Positions 5,916 through 17,854 of a DNA stretch of 56,146 bases are shown here, in pieces. The stretch is from Candidatus Dojkabacteria bacterium (GTDB lineage Bacteria > Patescibacteriota > Dojkabacteria > SC72 > JAFGCJ01). The first letter of the stretch is position 1; each line of letters opens with the position of its first letter. Position numbers and translations under genes: made by a program. The stretch is from NCBI GenBank assembly GCA_016929645.1, contig JAFGIK010000036.1, forward strand, positions 1 to 56,146. Reading direction: 5' to 3'. The notes beneath the pieces were generated by a model, which had not been told where the DNA came from, searched no databases, and was given only the letters and a program-made list of their open reading frames with translations.

Positions 5916-5973
5916 GGGGCCGGAGGGAGATTTTTTGATACTCAAAAAATCTCCCTCCGGCCCCATCGTTTTT
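5916..5973 (+). terminator. Long perfect hairpin (23-bp arms, 3-nt loop) after rplL
   Basis: GGGGCCGGAGGGAGATTTTTTGA-tac-TCAAAAAATCTCCCTCCGGCCCC followed by atcgttttt. Confidence 0.8.
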
Positions 5974-6148: not shown

Positions 6149-6820
6149 ATGCCTCAATTAACTCAATGGTTCTTAGATAGAGGTATATCAGAAGACATTC
6201 TCCTTATCATAAGCTTCATACCAATACTTGTAACAATGACATCAATCTCAAGGTATATTTTCGGTATAAAAACATTTGGTATATATTCTCCAATGGTACT
6301 AGCATTTTCCTTTTATTTTATGGGAGCAAGACAAGCCTTTATTTTTACATTTATTGTAATACTTGGAGCATGGTTAATTAGAGATCTTATTCGGAGGATG
6401 CAATTCCACTACATTTCCCGTATTGCAATTATTTACTGCGGTGTAAGCATTTTCATGCTCATTTCTATTACATTATCAACATTTATTTCAAGTAAAGACC
6501 CGTTTTTTAATTTTGGTCAACTTTCAATAATTCCAGCAATAATGATCATTTCAATTACAGATAGATTTGTTTCAAATTTTATTAAAAAAGGGCCAGATGC
6601 GGCGGTAAGATTAACATTAGAAACTCTTATAATTGCAATTCTTGGATGGGCATTAATGAGATTTGAACCGACCCGATATTTTGTTTTAAACAATCTATGG
6701 CTAATACCTGTAATGATTTTTGTAAATTATCTAACAGGCAACTATACAGGGATGCGTTGGACAGAATTTATTCGTTTTAATCAGGTAATAAAAAATGCTT
6801 CCGATAGTTCAAATGATTAA
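6149..6820 (+). CDS. Polytopic membrane protein resembling the 7TM_transglut domain, without a transglutaminase domain
   Basis: FGIKTFGIYSPMVLAFSFYFMG...NYLTGNYTGMRWTEFIRF signature; overlaps the following RimK-related gene by 26 nt. Confidence 0.75.
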   Translation: MPQLTQWFLDRGISEDILLIISFIPILVTMTSISRYIFGIKTFGIYSPMVLAFSFYFMGARQAFIFTFIVILGAWLIRDLIRRMQFHYISRIAIIYCGVSIFMLISITLSTFISSKDPFFNFGQLSIIPAIMIISITDRFVSNFIKKGPDAAVRLTLETLIIAILGWALMRFEPTRYFVLNNLWLIPVMIFVNYLTGNYTGMRWTEFIRFNQVIKNASDSSND

Positions 6821-8330
6821 AAATAGCAGACAGACACTTGGACTTAACCATAGAAATGCGGTTTACATTAGGCCGTACAACAAGTCAAAATTCAAGAGAA
6901 TCGCAGATGATAAACTCTTGTGCAAAAAGATTCTTTCACGGAATAATATTCCGACATCTCAGATCTACAAAGTCATCCGAAACCATGACCAGCTAGACTC
7001 TATCAAATGGGAAGAACTGCCTAAAAGTTTTGCATTAAAACCTAATATCGGTACAGGTGGTAGTGGGATCATCGTTGTCTATGGTCGAGTCAAAAACAGT
7101 CTTGAATGGATAAGAACTGATGGATCAACATTAAATGTAAATGCTCTTAAAAATCATATAAGTAAAATTCTTGACGGACAATTTTCTATGGGAAACCGAA
7201 AAGATACAGCATTTATAGAAGAACGGGTCATCAATGATCCATTATTGAAGAAGTATTCATATAAAGGTGTTCCAGATATTAGAGTAATTGTCTTTAACAG
7301 GGTTCCCATTATGGCTGAGTTAAGACTGCCGACAGCAGAATCAAGAGGTGCTGCAAACCTTCACGCAGGTGGTATTGGTGTTGGTATCGATATTGCAACA
7401 GGTATAACTACAGTCGCAATCCACCGAATAAGTAATCTCTTAACTTGTTTCCCTGGAATGTCCGACATGTATGAGATTATTGAAAACACTCTTGACGAAA
7501 ATCAACTTCCGATTAGCGGTATTCAGATTCCTCATTGGAGAGAAATTCTAGAGATAGCAATCAAATGCCAAGATGTTTCAGGACTAAAATTCCTTGGTGC
7601 AGATATAGCATTAGATCGAGATAAAGGACCACTAGTCTTTGAGCTCAATGCACGATCAGGAATAGCAATTCAAACAGCAAATCTATCTGGGATGCGAGAC
7701 CGACTAGAAAGAATTAACGGGCTAAAGATAAAGGATGCCGAGCATGGAATACGAATCGCTAAAAACTTATTCGGAGGAGAAGTTGAGGATGAAATTAAAT
7801 CAATTTCAGGAAGGAATATTCTTGGGCTTATAGAGAAAGCAATATTCCAACCAGTACCTCCAACAGAAGTTCCTGTAGAAGAGGTGAAAAAACACAAAAA
7901 AAGAAACAGAAAGAAAAGGAGTGGTTTTACAACAATAAAAACAAAAGTTAGAATTAATACAGGTATAAGAACATCTAAAATTTCTCCGATCCTTGCTACT
8001 CGCCTGGGATTTAGGCCAGCTTTAGATTTTTTTAAAAATGAAGAAATACCGGATTCTTTTCAATCAAGAGATGACGCTCGGAAATATCTTGAATCTGTAA
8101 AAGAAAAATTAATAGGTCATACAAATATTGTTGATGTTGTAATAACTGTTGAGGATGACAAAATTTCAATACGACCTGTGATCGAAATAGAAATAGAGCT
8201 TGATGAGGAGAATATAAAAACCCAAATGATAATAAGTAACAGGAAGGATATGCCATACAGTGCAGAAATTGGTAGAAATGATCTCAAAAATTTTCTCATC
8301 GATACAAGTAAGACGTTCTCTTTACACTAA
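6795..8330 (+). CDS. RimK-related ATP-grasp ligase (alpha-L-glutamate ligase-related) fused to C-terminal RimB-like retropepsin domain
   Basis: N-term LGLNHRNAVYIRPYNKSKFKRIADDKLLCKKIL..FALKPNIGTGGSGI and FELNARSGIAIQTAN; C-term TTIKTKVRINTGIRTSKIS...ISIRPVIEIEIEL..TQMIISNRKDMPYSAEIGRNDLKNFLIDTSKTFSL. Confidence 0.8.
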   Translation: MLPIVQMIKNSRQTLGLNHRNAVYIRPYNKSKFKRIADDKLLCKKILSRNNIPTSQIYKVIRNHDQLDSIKWEELPKSFALKPNIGTGGSGIIVVYGRVKNSLEWIRTDGSTLNVNALKNHISKILDGQFSMGNRKDTAFIEERVINDPLLKKYSYKGVPDIRVIVFNRVPIMAELRLPTAESRGAANLHAGGIGVGIDIATGITTVAIHRISNLLTCFPGMSDMYEIIENTLDENQLPISGIQIPHWREILEIAIKCQDVSGLKFLGADIALDRDKGPLVFELNARSGIAIQTANLSGMRDRLERINGLKIKDAEHGIRIAKNLFGGEVEDEIKSISGRNILGLIEKAIFQPVPPTEVPVEEVKKHKKRNRKKRSGFTTIKTKVRINTGIRTSKISPILATRLGFRPALDFFKNEEIPDSFQSRDDARKYLESVKEKLIGHTNIVDVVITVEDDKISIRPVIEIEIELDEENIKTQMIISNRKDMPYSAEIGRNDLKNFLIDTSKTFSLH

Positions 8331-8382
8331 TCAACATATTGATATTTAACCCGACAATATTTAGTTAACATATCTTACAAAA

Positions 8383-9378
8383 ATGCATAAATATACTCTC
8401 GAGGAATTTAGACAACAGGTCTGTAACTCACAAATGTCACTTTACATGAAAGCTGCACAAGATCTTGGTATTAAGAGCAAGATCTTAATAAAAGGTATTT
8501 TGGTAGAATTTGAAAAAGATAACAAAAAATGGAGAATTCATAAATCATTACTACCTATAAATGACTCTGTATCAATGATGCTATCAAGCTACAAATCTAC
8601 TTGTAACCAGTTTTTAGGGAAAAATAGTATCCCTGTTCCAATTCAGATAAGCACTGACAAATCTGAAGACATTCATAAATTTGTCGAACAAAATCATCTC
8701 GCTAAAATTGTCATAAAACCAATACGTGGATTTGGAGGATCCGGAATTACAATGCTTCCTCAAAAAAATCAGATAGATGGAGCATTCAACCTTGCTTATG
8801 AAAAAGCCCTGACAAATTTACGAAAAAGAGTGATTGCTGAAGAATTCATTTCTGGAGAAAATTACAGAATACTTGTATTAGGAGGCAAAGTAATTGCAGC
8901 CATACATAGAATTCCAGCGTTTGTTGTCGGTAATGGTAAATCAACGATTGAAGAACTAATAAAACAAAAAAACATTGAAAAAAGTAAGAATGATGCAATT
9001 GAAATTCCTGTTGATAACGAAACCCTACTCGCTCTCAAAGATCAAGATTTATCAATTGAGTCGGTTCCACAAAAACAAGAACGAATCAAACTTAGATTTA
9101 ATGCTAATTTTTGCACAGGAGGATCGACTAGAGAATGTCTAGCCGAAGTTCATGAAGAATACAAGAAAATTGCAATTGCAGCAACGAAACTTTTAGGTCT
9201 TAAGTTCTCAGGTATTGATTTGATAACCCCTGATATCTCAAATACCAATGTAAAATATGCAATTAATGAAGTTAATCATGACCCAGGGCTTCGAATACAT
9301 TATAATGTAGATGAAGGGGAAAAAACTGATATCGCAGTAATAGTTCAGAAATATATTCTTGAAAATTATAATAATTAA
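8383..9378 (+). CDS. ATP-grasp protein, cyanophycin synthetase-like
   Basis: IVIKPIRGFGGSGITML...SGENYRILVLGGKVIAAIHRIPAFVVGNGKSTIEELI...INEVNHDPGLRIHY. Confidence 0.8.
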   Translation: MHKYTLEEFRQQVCNSQMSLYMKAAQDLGIKSKILIKGILVEFEKDNKKWRIHKSLLPINDSVSMMLSSYKSTCNQFLGKNSIPVPIQISTDKSEDIHKFVEQNHLAKIVIKPIRGFGGSGITMLPQKNQIDGAFNLAYEKALTNLRKRVIAEEFISGENYRILVLGGKVIAAIHRIPAFVVGNGKSTIEELIKQKNIEKSKNDAIEIPVDNETLLALKDQDLSIESVPQKQERIKLRFNANFCTGGSTRECLAEVHEEYKKIAIAATKLLGLKFSGIDLITPDISNTNVKYAINEVNHDPGLRIHYNVDEGEKTDIAVIVQKYILENYNN

Positions 9379-9395
9379 ATTCTAATAATCCAAAG

Positions 9396-11078
9396 ATGAA
9401 AATAAAAGTTCTTCAAGGTTTAAATTTAATAAATCCGCACACAACAGTAATTGTCGAGATGGAAAAAGTAAGCGATGAACTTGTAAAAATGATAAAAGAA
9501 ATTCATCCAATATTCCTTATCGACTACAAAATACACACGGAGGCCAAGCTAGAAGTGCAAACACATATTCCAAACTTATGGAAGAATGAACAATTTCTAC
9601 AGCCAATAGAAGACTATGCAACAGGTAAAATCGATTATGAAAAAGCACGTCTTGAAATGCTTGAAGTCGCACGGTTACTTTTAGGTTCAATGTCTACAAT
9701 CCCTACCCTACATGCTGCGCACAAGAAAGGTTATGAAACTATCCAGTATTTTGTAAATGACAGTTCAATAGAAAAACTTTCTTTTAATAGGACTTATTCA
9801 ATAGGAATTGGCTTAGAGTCAGAGGTCATGACATCAGCATCATCTACAAGAGATGCTCATCTTGCCCAAAAAATACAGCGAGATAAATCAATAACCAATC
9901 AGGTCATAGAAAAGATGGGAATGCCAATTGCTAAATGGGCAATTGTAGACTCAAAAGAAAAATTAAAAGACCTAGGAGATAAAGTCGGCTACCCTCTTGT
10001 CATGAAACCAGTTGGCTTAACAGGTGGCCATGGTGTCCAAATCGGTATGAAAAATTCTCAAGAACTTGAGGAGGCTTGGGATAGAATACAAAGTTACTAT
10101 GAGAAAGATATGACACATCAAGAAAAAAAATCAGAATGGCAAAAAACAATAATCATTCAGCAAGTATTAAAAGGCTCAGATTACAGAATCCTTGTAGTTA
10201 ACGGAAAGTTCCAAATCGCAACACACAGGCTTCAGGCACAGGTTACAGGAGATGGCTCAAGTTCTATTGAAGAACTAATCAAAAAAGAAAATGAAAACCC
10301 AGCCCGTGATATTAACCTGCCAACTCACACACTCAAGCCAATTGTTATAGATAAAGATCTCATCAAAGTTTTAGAAAAACAAAACCTAAATATCAACTAC
10401 ATACCAAAGAAAGATGAAGTCGTAAGGGTCAGAGACGTTGCAAGTATGAGCCAAGGTGGAATTACAGCTGATGTAACAGACAAAATTCATCCTCAGATAA
10501 AATATATTTGCGAATCAATTGCACAGACTATTCATGCATTTGTTCTTGGAGTTGATGTACTAGCCCAGGACATCTCTAAACCACTCACAACAGACAATGG
10601 AGGAATTATTGAGATGAATACAATGCCTGAAATATATCTCAATACTCATCCAGTAATAGGGACTAAGAGAGAAGACTTTGGTGAACTGATTTTACAAAAT
10701 CTAATTAACCAGAATATCCATACAAATCGTGTAGTAGTATTAGGAGATATCTCTTATGAAAAGATCGAAAAGAACGTAACGGAACAACTGCCAGGTGCAA
10801 CAAAGATTGGAAGATTCTACAACAACACAATATACATCAATGGATTTGAAATCAATAGTAAATTATCGATACATACTGGTGTTTTATGTATGAAAAAGAA
10901 TAAATCCCTGGATACAATAGTCCTTCACTACCAAGATATTCAGGAGATAGAGGAAAATGGTCTAGGATTCGACAATATTGACCTTCTAATCTCAACGGAA
11001 GAGACTATCAATAAAGTTAAGGCAGATGTTCAAAAATACCTTGACGAAAAATTAATAAAACGAATGATTATAGTTTAG
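9396..11078 (+). CDS. Cyanophycin synthetase-like ATP-grasp protein lacking a full Mur-ligase domain, with a ~110-aa C-terminal extension
   Basis: VMKPVGLTGGHGVQIG...KGSDYRILVVNGKFQIATHRLQAQVTGDGSSSIEELI...IIEMNTMPEIYLNTHP. Confidence 0.8.
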   Translation: MKIKVLQGLNLINPHTTVIVEMEKVSDELVKMIKEIHPIFLIDYKIHTEAKLEVQTHIPNLWKNEQFLQPIEDYATGKIDYEKARLEMLEVARLLLGSMSTIPTLHAAHKKGYETIQYFVNDSSIEKLSFNRTYSIGIGLESEVMTSASSTRDAHLAQKIQRDKSITNQVIEKMGMPIAKWAIVDSKEKLKDLGDKVGYPLVMKPVGLTGGHGVQIGMKNSQELEEAWDRIQSYYEKDMTHQEKKSEWQKTIIIQQVLKGSDYRILVVNGKFQIATHRLQAQVTGDGSSSIEELIKKENENPARDINLPTHTLKPIVIDKDLIKVLEKQNLNINYIPKKDEVVRVRDVASMSQGGITADVTDKIHPQIKYICESIAQTIHAFVLGVDVLAQDISKPLTTDNGGIIEMNTMPEIYLNTHPVIGTKREDFGELILQNLINQNIHTNRVVVLGDISYEKIEKNVTEQLPGATKIGRFYNNTIYINGFEINSKLSIHTGVLCMKKNKSLDTIVLHYQDIQEIEENGLGFDNIDLLISTEETINKVKADVQKYLDEKLIKRMIIV

Positions 11079-11122
11079 TAAAAGAATAAAGTTCAAGTTA
11101 TTTAAATTATAAGAAATTTATA

Positions 11123-12052
11123 ATGAAATTTTTGATCGTTGATAAGAGCAAGAGAGTTGGAGATCTTGATTCACAACACTACGCAGTACAACGTATTATT
11201 GACAGTCTTGGTAAAAAACAAATAGAACACGAATTCTGCCATTTTGATGAAATTTCAATATGTGTTGAAAATGGACAGTTAATGCTTAGAATCAAAGGAA
11301 AACCACTCACTGACTTTTCACACATAATAATGAGAGGACACAGAAGAGAGGAATTTCAGATAAAACAAGCTGTCGTGTTCTTCAGTGAAAAACATGGGAT
11401 CAAAGTACAAAACGCAGAATTCATTAAGTTAATGCCAAGCTACAACAAGCTATTTCAACAGGTATTTATGGCACAAAACGGAATTCCATATATTGATTCA
11501 GCATATGTACTCAACGGAATGTATCACGAAGAATCAGAAACACTTGACAGGTTAGAGTTTCCGCTAATTTACAAACATGTCTGGGGTGAATATCGCGTAG
11601 AAAAAATCGATGGAGAAGACAAACTGAAAAAAAATGTTTTTCTAGTAAACAACATCGATGAGTTAAAAAAACAATGTACTGATCGAAGCGATCCCCAGGA
11701 TTATTTTATTCAAAAATATGTCGATATAGGAGAAGATACAAGAGCAATGATGATTGATGGAAAATTTATTGGAGGTTGGAAAAGAGAAGCAAACGAAAGC
11801 TTTTTAACAGTCGGGGGAAAACCCAAGTACAGCCTTTTTAATAATCCAGATCAAGAATATCTCGAATTAGTTGAAAAAACAGCAAAACTATTCAAAGCTC
11901 AATACTGTGCACTAGATGTCATATACTACAAAGATAAACCTCACATTCTCGAGATTAATATGGACCCAGGATTTAAAGCATTTGAGACCAAAATTGAAGG
12001 AATGGAAATCGACATCGCAATGGCAATCGTTGATAACATGCTTGAGAAATAA
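11123..12052 (+). CDS. RimK-like ATP-grasp ligase
   Basis: IYKHVWGEYRVEKID...FIQKYVDIGEDTRAMMIDGKFIGGWKREA...ALDVIYYKDKPHILEINMDPGFKAFE. Confidence 0.8.
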   Translation: MKFLIVDKSKRVGDLDSQHYAVQRIIDSLGKKQIEHEFCHFDEISICVENGQLMLRIKGKPLTDFSHIIMRGHRREEFQIKQAVVFFSEKHGIKVQNAEFIKLMPSYNKLFQQVFMAQNGIPYIDSAYVLNGMYHEESETLDRLEFPLIYKHVWGEYRVEKIDGEDKLKKNVFLVNNIDELKKQCTDRSDPQDYFIQKYVDIGEDTRAMMIDGKFIGGWKREANESFLTVGGKPKYSLFNNPDQEYLELVEKTAKLFKAQYCALDVIYYKDKPHILEINMDPGFKAFETKIEGMEIDIAMAIVDNMLEK

Positions 12053-12080
12053 GTAAGATTTACAAAAAACTGAAATTAAT

Positions 12081-13244
12081 CTATACCAATCCTGTTTCAG
12101 AGAATATCCTATCAACAAGATGTTGCGTTGGATATACCGAAGGTTTTGGAATAATACCCTCCTCTACTAAAGGAATCCAGGAATATGCAATTTTACCTGC
12201 ATACATATATTTATACCCATTCTCATCGCCAGAAAGCTTTCTTCGAATATTAAGAAAACCTCGGAAATATGACACATCTTTACAGTAGCAACCAGTAAGA
12301 GACGTATCTGACATTCCGCGTTTAACTCGATACGTTATCTCAAATGCTGATCGTCTAGCATAAATCGATCTAAGTGCATCAAAGATTTGCCTAAAAGATG
12401 AATACTGAGCCAAATATATTGCATATACAAATGCAGCCCTCTTCTTAATATCTATCGCTCTTAATAACCCAAACTTTTCCTCGTTATATGTTGCTAGACC
12501 TTCTTCATCATCAAGATAATCAGCAACAGTAGGCTTGCCAAAGGATTCTATACCTGTAGCAAAGCCGTTACTTGAACGAAGAACATGAGTTAGAATCTCA
12601 TGAACAATCGTCTTCCTTATCTTCTCAACGTTAGTATCAATATTCGGATCAAGCATAACTCTCTTTGTCTTTGCAACAGTACGGATACCAGAAGACACAA
12701 TAGCCTTTGATTTATCAACCTCCCAATCAGTCAGATCAAGAATCTCAAAAACTTTTTGAAAAACAACAACTAAATCATCATATCTAAGCTTTCGCTGTCT
12801 TAACTTTTTATCAGATTCTACAATATTTATGTCACCATAACGCCTTCGTAAAACTCTACAAGCTTTTCGAAACAATTTGTAAGATGGAAGTTTAAAACGC
12901 TCATAGGAAATCTTGACAAAACGCTCATCATCTCCGATCGATTCAAGCAGCTCGGATGTCTGTTTTTTACTTTCTACAATTTGAAGAATTATATTTGATA
13001 TCGCAGGATCTACATCACTAACAACCCGAAGATTATCAAGAATTTTAAGTTGCTCCATATTATCTTTTTCAGCTTTACGGTATTTAAAAACCGGGTTATA
13101 ATCATCTTCTTTAAAAAACTTAGCCCGCTCTTCTTCAAGATTTTCAGGAACAAGATACAAACTTAACGGAGTCGCGATATTTGATAGAATTTCGTTAACT
13201 TCTTCAAGAGTAAATTCTGTTTTATTTTTAGTGAAATTAAACAT
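12081..13244 (-). CDS. DUF1704/MATCAP-like zinc metallopeptidase (QEGLA-type family)
   Basis: IVHEILTHVLRSSNG (HExxxH) followed by YLDDEEGLATYNEEKFGLL, the EGLA motif of this family. Confidence 0.78.
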   Translation of the reverse strand: MFNFTKNKTEFTLEEVNEILSNIATPLSLYLVPENLEEERAKFFKEDDYNPVFKYRKAEKDNMEQLKILDNLRVVSDVDPAISNIILQIVESKKQTSELLESIGDDERFVKISYERFKLPSYKLFRKACRVLRRRYGDINIVESDKKLRQRKLRYDDLVVVFQKVFEILDLTDWEVDKSKAIVSSGIRTVAKTKRVMLDPNIDTNVEKIRKTIVHEILTHVLRSSNGFATGIESFGKPTVADYLDDEEGLATYNEEKFGLLRAIDIKKRAAFVYAIYLAQYSSFRQIFDALRSIYARRSAFEITYRVKRGMSDTSLTGCYCKDVSYFRGFLNIRRKLSGDENGYKYMYAGKIAYSWIPLVEEGIIPKPSVYPTQHLVDRIFSETGLV

Positions 13245-13258
13245 CTATAATTATTGGA

Positions 13259-14899
13259 TTATGTAATTTTATCTATTAACATATACATCGAAGATTCGAG
13301 AAAACCCGTCCAAACACGGAAAAATCTTTTTATATTAGCATTAAATCCTCCACCTTGCTTGCTAAAACCACGAAAAAACCACTCCAAGCCTAAATATCCT
13401 AAATTGACATCCACTTTGTTAGCCTCACCAGCAACAAAATCAAAAGTCCCACCAAGGCTAATACCAAGCCCACACTTTAATTGAGATCTATTTGCAAAAA
13501 GCCATTCTTCTCCGCCTTTTACACAAACAACAAGTATATCAGGATTTGCTTTATTTATTAACTTCAGAGCCTCGGAAGATGATTCTTCTGAACGCTTCCC
13601 AGGATAAACATCCTTGATTTTAAGACCAGGATACTCTTTGCTTAAGCGTTCAGAAGCAAGAATACCAGTATTTCCATGTCCGAAATCAAATCCTCCATAA
13701 AAGAACACAGAATACCCCCTTTTTAAGGCAAGTTCCATAAGTGGACGGATTAACTCAGACCCGGAAACTTTTGCACGCAAGACACTTCTAATCGCGTCAG
13801 GATAGAAAATTACAAGGATACCAGACAGGATAAAATGAAACACCCCCTCCACCAATCGTATCACAAAATTATTACTCAATTCTAAACTCCTCAAATATGC
13901 AGCCCACAAAACAAAAATACCATCGGACAATGATAAAACCCCATTATTCAGCGCATCTCTGAAATACCTGTCACGCTGGGCCTTCACAACATATTCAGAA
14001 TAAGGAGTAACAACATACGAAAATTCCCCAGAATTTATCAGCTTGTCCATCTTTCCGATTGCAGATTCCACTGTCTCATTATTGATTTGCACACCCAAGA
14101 CATCAACAACATCTACCCTCCTTCTTGATTTATCTTGAATATACAATTTGAACAAATCATTAATCTCAGACAATATTACTGAAATGCAAACACACAGAAT
14201 TGCAAAAGAAAAAAGTCCAAAATAAGGAATAATTGAAAATAAATACCCTAAAATAGCAATTAAAATTATACTTGAAAGAAAATTTATTAAATCTTGAAAT
14301 TTTTTAGCTTTGTGAAGCCAACGTATAAGAAAAATAGATAAAAATACAATACTAAGTGCCCAAAATATAGAGATAAACATAAATAATACTAGAAAAATAT
14401 AGCAGAGTACTATCGGAATTACTCTTAACAATCCAGATTCCATATTCCTTATAAAAACCAACTTAGAGAAAAATATATAAAAAAGAGCCATGGAACCAAC
14501 AAAAATTGACAAAAACAATCCATAATAAATATACGTAGAAACAATATTCCTTAAAATAGAAATTTCAATCATAGGAAGTTGCTGATTGAAATAGTAACCA
14601 ATACATAGCAAAATCAAACAGTAAATTGAGAAAATAAGTTTATTACTCCAAAGCTGAAACCCAAGGAATATAATTATGAAAAATATTAGCGAATATACCC
14701 AGACCCCAGAATTAATTATGTTAAATCCAAAAAAATTAAACAGAAACAAAATAAAAATGCTAAAACAGAACAACCCAACAATATAAATATTCTCAAGACC
14801 AGAAATATCAAACAGGCTTTGTTTCAAGGATGGGTCCTTTTCTTTAGTCAAAATTTTCAATGTTGCTTTATCTTTTCCAAAATTTTTAGATTTGGGCAT
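13259..14899 (-). CDS. WecG/TagA/CpsF (GT26) glycosyltransferase fused to N-terminal polytopic membrane domain
   Basis: VDVLGVQINNETVESAI...YVVTPYSEYVVKAQRDRYFRDALNNGVLSLSDGIFVLWAA...FFYGGFDFGHG...LGISLGGTFDFVAGE; about 250 aa hydrophobic N-terminus. Confidence 0.82.
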   Translation of the reverse strand: MPKSKNFGKDKATLKILTKEKDPSLKQSLFDISGLENIYIVGLFCFSIFILFLFNFFGFNIINSGVWVYSLIFFIIIFLGFQLWSNKLIFSIYCLILLCIGYYFNQQLPMIEISILRNIVSTYIYYGLFLSIFVGSMALFYIFFSKLVFIRNMESGLLRVIPIVLCYIFLVLFMFISIFWALSIVFLSIFLIRWLHKAKKFQDLINFLSSIILIAILGYLFSIIPYFGLFSFAILCVCISVILSEINDLFKLYIQDKSRRRVDVVDVLGVQINNETVESAIGKMDKLINSGEFSYVVTPYSEYVVKAQRDRYFRDALNNGVLSLSDGIFVLWAAYLRSLELSNNFVIRLVEGVFHFILSGILVIFYPDAIRSVLRAKVSGSELIRPLMELALKRGYSVFFYGGFDFGHGNTGILASERLSKEYPGLKIKDVYPGKRSEESSSEALKLINKANPDILVVCVKGGEEWLFANRSQLKCGLGISLGGTFDFVAGEANKVDVNLGYLGLEWFFRGFSKQGGGFNANIKRFFRVWTGFLESSMYMLIDKIT

Positions 14900-14982
14900 A
14901 ATTAATTTTGTATAAAATTACTCCTTGTCCTATGCTCCATATTACCAAATACAAAACCTATTTACCTGTATGATCGTATAAG

Positions 14983-15987
14983 TTACTCGCTATCTAAACT
15001 TTTTTGTAATATATCAAGATTCTTTAGAGCTTCTCCCGTACCTTTCACAACACAATACATAGGTTCCTCTGCTACGTGAGCAGGAACACCTGTCGCTTTT
15101 GTCAGCAATCGATCAATGTTTCGAAGCATCGCAGTACCTCCGCTAAGGACCATTCCTCGATTAATAACGTCAGAAGATAACTCTGGTGGTGTTTTTTCAA
15201 GAACATCCTTAACAGCCTTAATTATCTTGCTTAATGGATAATTCAAAGCTTCAACCGTTTCATTTGATGTTACTTCAACCGATCTTGGCATACCACTAGT
15301 ACTATCACGACCACGAACATCCATAGTCATAAAGTTATCAATAGGTAAAGCAGAACCAATTTTTAACTTAATTTCTTCTGCAGTTTGTTCACCAATCAAT
15401 AGTCCATGATGTTTCCTCATATAAGAAATAAGAGCATCATTCAATGCATCACCTGCAACACGTACTGAATTATATACAACCATACCATTAAGTGAGATAA
15501 CAGCAACTTCTGTCGTACCACCACCCATATTTACAATCATATTCCCAGACGAAGTATGAATAGGAAGCTTTGCTCCAATTGACGCTGCAAGGGGTTCAGG
15601 AATAAGCCAAACTCTTTTTGCTCCAGCAGAGAGAGCAGCTTTTCGTACAGCACGCTTCTCTACTGACGTAATACCAGCAGGAACACTTATCATTACATCA
15701 GGCTTAAATAAACGTGAATAGCCAATTGTTTTATTCAGGAAATATTTCAATAATGCTTCCGTTATGCGATAGCTGGCGATAACACCACTTCTCAACGGTC
15801 TTCTGGCAATGATATTGTCAGGAGTCTTTCCAATCATTGTCTTTGCTTCATTTCCAACAGCTACAACAGAATAATCATCCGTATTCAAGGCAACAACAGT
15901 TGGCTCTACAAGTACAACGCCCTGTGGTTCAAGGAAAACTATTGAATTTGCTGTGCCAAGGTCAATACCAATTCTTTTGTTAAACAT
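14983..15987 (-). CDS. mreB: Rod shape-determining protein MreB
   Basis: RIGIDLGTANSIVFL...PEPLAASIGAKLPI...MIVNMGGGTTEVAVISL...GMVLSGGTAMLRNIDRLL. Confidence 0.95.
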   Translation of the reverse strand: MFNKRIGIDLGTANSIVFLEPQGVVLVEPTVVALNTDDYSVVAVGNEAKTMIGKTPDNIIARRPLRSGVIASYRITEALLKYFLNKTIGYSRLFKPDVMISVPAGITSVEKRAVRKAALSAGAKRVWLIPEPLAASIGAKLPIHTSSGNMIVNMGGGTTEVAVISLNGMVVYNSVRVAGDALNDALISYMRKHHGLLIGEQTAEEIKLKIGSALPIDNFMTMDVRGRDSTSGMPRSVEVTSNETVEALNYPLSKIIKAVKDVLEKTPPELSSDVINRGMVLSGGTAMLRNIDRLLTKATGVPAHVAEEPMYCVVKGTGEALKNLDILQKSLDSE

Positions 15988-16111
15988 ATAAGCCTTATTA
16001 TAACATTGATCATTATCTCAGTCATGTGAGAATTTATTACAAAAATTAATATTTATGAAACAAATCCAGAACATTGATTCATATACAGCAGACTGATATA
16101 CTTCAGAAGAT

Positions 16112-17854
16112 ATGATTAAGACAGATTCAAACAAACAACTTGACATAGCTGTCCTTTCATCATACATATTGCCCATTCTCCTAATTATTGGAACAATCCT
16201 CGTCTATTTCACTGCAAGAGGTTACAGAATTGACTTTGAAAATCAAGAAATCGAGACAACCGGTACACTAAACATCAAATCTTCACCCACAAGAGCATAC
16301 GTAATTCTTGACGATAAGTTAATAGGCAAGACACCCAAAGTTAGCACTGGACTGGCAGAAGGCGAACATTCAATAACCATACAAAAAGAAAACTATCACT
16401 CATGGAGTATGGATTTTTACCTTGAAGGAGAAAGCTTAATCCCAATACATATTCCATTGTATCTTAAAGAAACAATGCATAAGAAAATTTTCCAAATAGA
16501 TGCAGACACAGAGCTAGATCAGATTATCAATTCTGAGAATAATGAATTTATTTACTTTACTACCATGAGGAAAGAAGAGACACAAGATCAGCAGCAAGAG
16601 GAATCAGAAAACAATCAAACAGATCAGGCTCTGGACACTTATACTGACATAGAAATCTGGAGATACCAGATTAATAAATACTTTTGGCAATTCGACATAA
16701 AACCAGAGATCGTCTATACCCTGGAAGTTTATGATGAGCAAAACGACAACAATAAAACAGCCCAAAAAATCAATATCAAAAATTACAGCATTTTACCTTC
16801 ACCTAATAATGAAAATATTCTTATAAAAACGAATATTAACGATAGAGTTTACTATTATATTACGGGCAACCTTACTCAAAACGAAAACAAACTTACAGAG
16901 TTGGATTTACCTAACATTACAGAACAAGACAAAATATCATGGTCCAAAGATTCCAAGTACCTGATACTGGAAAAAGAAAATGAGCTTCGATCCATAAACA
17001 TACAGGATGGACAACAAACAATAATTATTGAGAAAAATCACAATACTGAATTTATCTGGACGTCAGACATGCAAGGAAATCTATACTATGTTGACGAGAC
17101 AAAAAATTCCTACGATTTTTACCAAGTTCTTCAAAACGGAAAACAAAAACAAATGATATTCAGGACATACAGAACAAACATAAACGAATCAACAGAAGAA
17201 ACACAAACAAATCCTGATCAACAAGATATAAACCAAGATACAAAGCAGGAGGCTCAAGACAACACAGAAGATTCAAAACTAATCGAAGAACAGAACCAAG
17301 ATGTCAAAGGAGCACAAACAGAAGCCATCGAAGTTACATTAAATAAATTGAACGATATTATAGTATCAGATAACGGAAACTTCATGATAATCTTTTCCGA
17401 TAACAAATTAATCGTGAACAATAATAAAGAGAGTACCACAGACAGTTACTCTGTCGACAATCCTGAATTCATTGGATTTTCACCATCACAAGAAGGCTTT
17501 TTATTTCTGGAGGAAGGGAATAAAGTCATAAATTACAACATTGAAATAGAGGAAAATCATCCACAAAAAAAAGAAGGTCCAACATATCTTTTTGAATTTG
17601 ACGAAAATTCAAGCTATTCAAACTTCAACTGGCATCCTTACGAAAACGTTATTTTCTATACGAAAGAAATAAAGAATTCTGAAAATGTAGATGACACACA
17701 ACTCAAGTTATGCGTATTCTATATTTATAATAAACAGGAAATCGAGATCGACGACAATTTAATATTCAGTCAGTATTCTATAAACAGCGAAAGAAATAAA
17801 CTCTATACCTTTTGTCAAAAAAATTACCTGTGTGAAATAATAATTTCAGAATAA
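16112..17854 (+). CDS. Membrane-anchored PEGA-domain protein with probable beta-propeller-like C-terminus
   Basis: One TM helix then TGTLNIKSSPTRAYVILDDKLIGKTPKVSTGLAEGEHSITIQKENY; repeated WSKDSKYLIL / WTSDMQGNLYYV. Confidence 0.65.
   Translation: MIKTDSNKQLDIAVLSSYILPILLIIGTILVYFTARGYRIDFENQEIETTGTLNIKSSPTRAYVILDDKLIGKTPKVSTGLAEGEHSITIQKENYHSWSMDFYLEGESLIPIHIPLYLKETMHKKIFQIDADTELDQIINSENNEFIYFTTMRKEETQDQQQEESENNQTDQALDTYTDIEIWRYQINKYFWQFDIKPEIVYTLEVYDEQNDNNKTAQKINIKNYSILPSPNNENILIKTNINDRVYYYITGNLTQNENKLTELDLPNITEQDKISWSKDSKYLILEKENELRSINIQDGQQTIIIEKNHNTEFIWTSDMQGNLYYVDETKNSYDFYQVLQNGKQKQMIFRTYRTNINESTEETQTNPDQQDINQDTKQEAQDNTEDSKLIEEQNQDVKGAQTEAIEVTLNKLNDIIVSDNGNFMIIFSDNKLIVNNNKESTTDSYSVDNPEFIGFSPSQEGFLFLEEGNKVINYNIEIEENHPQKKEGPTYLFEFDENSSYSNFNWHPYENVIFYTKEIKNSENVDDTQLKLCVFYIYNKQEIEIDDNLIFSQYSINSERNKLYTFCQKNYLCEIIISE

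Follow-up and report, generated by a model that had tools for sequence, protein, structure and literature searches.

The Rlo system of Pseudomonas controls osmotic tolerance, cell shape and the antibiotic response, and its operon is the closest characterised system to the locus analysed here, which comprises six genes (A to F) at positions 6149–13244 of a 56,146-nucleotide contig of Candidatus Dojkabacteria (JAFGIK010000036.1; this whole stretch is referred to as the window). The RloA protein of P. aeruginosa cleaves poly-Glu, and rloA mutants are rescued from their defects when rloB or rloC is removed (PMC12239564), so that the target of RloA is presumably produced or presented by RloB and RloC. 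The locus shares with rloABC (PMC12239564) homologs of the seven-transmembrane (7TM) domain of RloB, of the ATP-grasp ligase RloC and of the retropepsin RloA, and the RloB- and RloC-type genes are adjacent in both. There are also differences: RloB bears an inactive transglutaminase domain whereas protein A has none; RloA is a separate, secreted protein whereas its counterpart here forms the C-terminal domain of a cytosolic ligase and is predicted to be catalytically dead; and the window adds three ATP-grasp enzymes and a MATCAP-family metallocarboxypeptidase. Our preferred reading, to which we give a probability of roughly 0.55, is that of a Patescibacterial variant of Rlo: a cytoplasmic, membrane-coupled writer/eraser of an acidic peptide chain, erasure having passed to MATCAP. 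The features of the locus are listed below.

6149–6820, + strand: gene A, RloB-like 7TM membrane protein that has no transglutaminase domain (PF14402 63 bits; NCBIfam RloB 52 bits, 7TM part only)
6795–8330, + strand: gene B, ATP-grasp ligase of RloC type with a retropepsin-like domain at its C-terminal end (PF14397 215 bits; TIGR02291 264 bits)
7926–8318, + strand: retropepsin (RimB/RloA-like) domain of B (DTG changed to NTG at 7956–7964; PF05618 match 8142–8318)
8383–9378, + strand: gene C, CphA-type ATP-grasp consisting of the G domain alone (203 bits with the cyanophycin synthetase profile, cut-off 850; PDB 7lgm E 7e-60)
9396–11078, + strand: gene D, CphA-type ATP-grasp, N-terminal domain and Mur-ligase remnant (PRK14016 240 bits; PDB 7lg5 E 5.5e-65)
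11123–12052, + strand: gene E, RimK-like ATP-grasp, kept in the taxonomic order (PF08443 48 bits; RimK subfamily 79 bits, cut-off 143)
12081–13244, − strand: gene F, MATCAP/QEGLA-family metallocarboxypeptidase (PF08014 97 bits; HExxxH 12585–12602; EEG 12498–12506)

A check of the open reading frames of the window returned all six genes at these coordinates, A–E on the + strand and F on the − strand. A and B overlap by 26 nt, and E and F are convergent and 28 bp apart, which agrees in coordinates and spacing with the original prediction of five packed + strand genes converging on a metallopeptidase. Its family calls for the six genes also hold in profile searches, where the scores exceed the Pfam cut-offs (PF14402, 25; PF14397, 31.4; RimK, 21; PF08014, 27; PF05618, 27 bits) except for the RimB-like domain, which reaches 20.7 bits with PF05618, some of its relatives lying above the cut-off. 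The RimK Pfam scores of the three further ATP-grasps beyond B are 62, 32 and 48 bits. B meets the PF14397 cut-off and lies below that of TIGR02291 (314 bits). Profile matches to the Legionella proteins give 63 bits for RloB and 283 bits for RloC, and Legionella RloA is matched, DTG region included, by a profile built from the C-terminal domains of 92 B proteins (E = 1.5e-12). Protein A (223 amino acids) consists of the 7TM part alone, and the absence of a transglutaminase domain had been rightly noted; in Patescibacteria the 7TM gene product is often of ~510 amino acids, with a PKD domain instead of the transglutaminase in the two examined. B contains no hydrophobic stretch of membrane type (maximum KD19 1.5). 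The structure models of B and D, from shallow alignments, have a mean pLDDT of 38 and 41, respectively, too low for any conclusion on the folds.

Concerning other described systems, an ATP-grasp ligase and a retropepsin are found in one polypeptide in the RimBK hybrid (RimABK; PMC11957791), so a fusion of this kind, which had been listed among the features of a possible new variant, is not new as such, though the domain order is the opposite one: there RimB is N-terminal to RimK, whereas here an RloC-type ligase precedes the retropepsin and a 7TM partner is added. In annotated records of Rhizobiaceae, an FGase–QEGLA–ATP-grasp operon likewise has a MATCAP/QEGLA protein beside an ATP-grasp ligase, but contains neither 7TM protein nor retropepsin; both gene sets are combined in one Patescibacterium (L118), where 7TM–B–F is joined with FGase, ATP-grasp and CphA-like genes. 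The human MATCAP/TMCP tubulin carboxypeptidases (PMC10499314) have a homologous catalytic domain with HExxxH and EEG; unlike them, the bacterial copy is linked or fused to a ligase, and the window contains no tubulin.

Loss of the retropepsin active site in MATCAP-bearing genomes

In the window and in the sister genome G001 the catalytic Asp of the retropepsin is Asn (NTG), a change which the earlier, sequence-only reading had missed. The domain is therefore probably dead, and D48N is the dead control for P. aeruginosa RloA (PMC12239564); the role of tag remover that had been suggested for this domain is not supported here. No second PF05618 protein was detected in the source genome, a 95%-complete draft. 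Across 136 copies of B, the D[TS]G motif is kept in 94. It is lost in 42 of the 91 MATCAP-carrying genomes versus none of the 45 without MATCAP. A tree of the ATP-grasp part alone requires at least 11 motif changes. With regain disallowed, 17 losses are inferred, every one of them in a MATCAP lineage, and these lineages account for 52% of the tree length. Also, the sites corresponding to the poly-Glu contacts K46, R114 and R137 of the published P. aeruginosa RloA numbering, a correspondence which depends on the alignment of Legionella RloA, are each basic in 44/44 copies without MATCAP, two of which have R in place of K46, and are eroded in MATCAP-bearing copies. The window has R at all three (K46 replaced by R, R114 and R137 kept) despite the loss of the catalytic Asp. 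One peptidase decays only where the other is present, which predicts a common product for both.

In the MATCAP domain, the HExxxH plus [EQ]EG zinc site is intact in 73/73 copies, window included. F is matched by the human MATCAP structure 7z5g (E 1e-25). Human relatives (TMCPs) take C-terminal residues and poly-Glu off tubulin (PMC10499314), and by analogy members of this family would remove C-terminal Glu or Tyr. Among 389 sampled Patescibacteria, the B profile finds 117 and MATCAP is present in 78; the two co-occur strongly (MATCAP in 70/117 genomes with B versus 8/272 without, P 4e-36). In 35 genomes of 13 families, B carries MATCAP as a C-terminal fusion, the product being a ligase–retropepsin–MATCAP protein of ~800 amino acids (Pfam MATCAP scores of 121 and 194 bits in the two scanned), so the proposed partnership of a MATCAP-like protein with the ligase locus extends to a single chain. 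A ligase, a retropepsin and a tubulin-tail-type carboxypeptidase are thereby present in one Patescibacterial polypeptide, and these compact enzymes are open to direct expression and assay. Within a limited literature search, which is no proof of novelty, almost nothing was found on bacterial MATCAP and no paper on DUF1704 with ATP-grasp; the locus would offer a bacterial role for the QEGLA/MATCAP family. A more distant MATCAP relative, with frames of ~450–490 amino acids, is found in family f22 (G204, G270, G311, G336 and G344), whose genomes lack B.

Retropepsin decay and MATCAP could both be by-products of lineage history, the decayed domain being merely a ligase activator with no functional replacement. 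RimB stimulates RimK besides removing Glu from S6 (PMC11957791), the retropepsin fold is still recognised in 33 of the 35 fused proteins, and fused ligase–MATCAP proteins make up 31 of the 42 dead copies, so the signal may stem partly from few lineages. We nevertheless consider this account distinctly unlikely: the motif has likewise been lost in G006, G008, G012 and the clades of the window and of G251, each time with MATCAP, and no dead copy is seen among the 45 without it.

When the losses are placed randomly by branch length, P for their restriction to MATCAP lineages is ~1e-4, or 0.016 if they are conservatively counted as seven, which favours replacement of one eraser by the other. Several points weigh against it. 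Both P values take branches as independent, and a phylogenetic independent-pairs test of loss against MATCAP, with too few informative pairs, is not significant. Replacement is not obligatory, since D[TS]G is unbroken in four fused proteins, and DTG is also retained by most of the Dojkabacteria of the order that have MATCAP. Finally, the loss of contact residues in the order could mean that the chain is no longer poly-Glu.

As a Patescibacterial Rlo variant, the locus may work as follows. Taken together, the genetics of rlo and the removal of poly-Glu by TMCPs point to an acidic chain made by A and B at the membrane, with F trimming it. B, held beside A, would start the chain or lengthen it residue by residue, using ATP to ligate what are most probably acidic residues to a C-terminal carboxylate; C and D (CphA-like) and E (RimK-like) would add further residues, extending or capping it. 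Trimming would originally have fallen to the retropepsin domain of B; in MATCAP-bearing lineages F would trim instead, the retropepsin having decayed repeatedly (here from D to N). Its persistent fold in the fused proteins suggests that the decayed domain may stay as a chain-binding or ligase-stimulating part. The output would probably act on the cell envelope and on rod elongation.

The additional ATP-grasp enzymes C, D and E

The profiles nearest to C and D are those of cyanophycin synthetase, GshF and N-acetylglutaminylglutamine synthetase. Both proteins share the ATP-grasp G domain of CphA1/CphA2, and the truncated Mur-ligase remnant of D recalls the single-site CphA2; unlike in these enzymes, key catalytic residues are missing and Mur-ligase activity is not expected. 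The match of C to 7lgm covers the G domain only, and C has no Mur-ligase domain. The match of D to 7lg5 spans 168–576 of 879: D has the N-terminal domain, the G domain and ~95 residues aligning to the start of the Mur-ligase domain (~10713–10997), without the GTNGKT P-loop. In the alignment, His267 of the cyanophycin synthetase G domain is Gly in D, and C has no His there; this residue is needed in SuCphA1, where H267A is inactivating (PMC9262961). The pair is accordingly CphA-like at the family level, as first described, but lacks the catalytic His and a working Mur-ligase domain, and C and D are predicted to be peptide ligases other than cyanophycin synthetases.

These results bear on an alternative in which the CphA-like ligases make a soluble osmolyte or storage oligomer, a relative of cyanophycin or of N-acetylglutaminylglutamine, recycled by F and other peptidases. 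The nearest profiles and the osmotic defects of rlo mutants (PMC12239564) are in line with such a pathway; however, His267 is lacking in C and D, as is the Mur-ligase P-loop in D, the locus has no Mur-ligase partner, and C and D are outside the phylum-wide core, which is A–B with or without F. We therefore regard a soluble oligomer as quite improbable. Of the peptide tag or storage peptide that had been proposed, a cyanophycin-like storage polymer is unlikely, since the catalytic His and a working Mur-ligase domain are missing, whereas the writer/eraser idea is retained as our reading. With the primary-metabolism equivalogs (D-Ala-D-Ala ligase, glutathione synthetase), all genes of the locus score far below the curated cut-offs, which speaks against ordinary primary metabolism, an assignment that would have told against the original prediction. 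A limited literature search returned no paper on Dojkabacteria with cyanophycin.

The ATP-grasps directly 3′ of the core differ between lineages. In G023 (and apparently G024) an AAT-type acyltransferase (Ntn hydrolase) lies between C and D, and a glycosyltransferase and an alpha/beta hydrolase lie between D and E (L041:11398–12375 and 14053–16299).

Gene order, MreB and surroundings of the locus

The following two features flank the six genes; MreB2 is a close neighbour of F across the order and is regarded as associated, not as a component.

5917–5963, + strand: strong intrinsic-terminator hairpin (20 pairs, 11 G-C, then a T-rich tail)
14983–15987, − strand: second MreB copy (MreB2)

The hairpin parts the A–E operon from the upstream rplJ–rplL. 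The gene order of ribosomal proteins, A-B-C-D-E, opposite-strand F, MreB and a PEGA protein is kept on most of the long-enough contigs of 38 related genomes, so the neighbourhood is conserved in relatives, as had been expected of a multi-ATP-grasp peptide-ligase locus akin to the known association of 7TM-transglut proteins, RimK-like ligases and aspartyl proteases. B is present in 38 of the 41 genomes of the set, and A adjoins B in 119/137 genomes (median gap −1 nt). A, B, D and F are all missing from two near-complete genomes, G020 (2 contigs) and G021 (3 contigs); G021 has no E either, and in G020 only a 42-bit paralog of E is seen. C was not searched separately in these two, and the profile of D, which detects C elsewhere, matches nothing there. 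Based on this joint absence, the genes of the locus appear to behave as a unit.

Both genomes also lack both MreB copies. Of six genomes in which transpeptidases were sought, only these two are without the MreB-adjacent one, a penicillin-binding protein (PBP), and they keep two others; in G020 and G021 the order thus has a natural case of lost rod machinery. In four other families, a class A PBP is encoded 3′ of B, either next to it or a few genes away, and P. aeruginosa cells without RloA are short and wide (PMC12239564). The shared loss of the module, MreB and PBP in two genomes suggests a link to cell-wall elongation. The co-loss with MreB, however, amounts to one or two events, and the genes lie within ~25 kb in that family, so chromosomal linkage could also explain it, which lessens the force of this argument. 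The locus is a pointer to the envelope biology of ultrasmall bacteria, which are mostly without cultured representatives. A broader idea, in which bacterial MATCAP relatives erase an acidic peptide modification made by membrane RloC-type ligases and so tune MreB elongation, the tubulin enzymes descending from a bacterial cell-shape writer/eraser kit, is speculative and we hold it to be doubtful.

F stays near MreB2 even where it is parted from the ligase operon (G001:C2, G006:C13, G012:C61). This would fit a scheme in which a particular protein receives a C-terminal modification from the ligases and F removes the addition, with MreB2 as the natural candidate and no free or envelope chain; S6 is glutamylated by RimK and the reaction is reversed by RimB (PMC11957791), and MATCAPs act on protein tails (PMC10499314). 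Against this, the C-terminal tails of MreB2 are neither conserved nor acidic across the order, and MreB2 was rejected as the acceptor; the 7TM partner beside B points to the membrane. A specific protein target is in our opinion unlikely, and the membrane-coupled Rlo variant is preferred.

Housekeeping neighbours elsewhere (RuvC, YebC, UvrC, queuosine synthesis) were judged to be synteny only, and a role in anti-phage defence was dismissed, PADLOC giving only a 14-bit chance match. No relatives of B were found on viral contigs. The promoter scan gave no more sites than shuffled sequence, and the RNA-family search of the window found tRNAs only. An RloC-type ligase is encoded in an unannotated stretch of an archaeal plasmid (Halobacterium sp. 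DL1; L205:6001–6861). Elsewhere in the window, the ribosomal protein genes are preceded at 123–2075 by the gene of a HelD-like helicase of RNA-polymerase recycling, which is shortened (293 bits, cut-off 419), and 16112–17854, downstream of MreB2, encodes the PEGA-domain protein conserved across the order. A WecG/TagA glycosyltransferase with a long membrane part of many helices fused to it is encoded at 13259–14899, and G005 has an O-antigen-ligase-like protein in that place.

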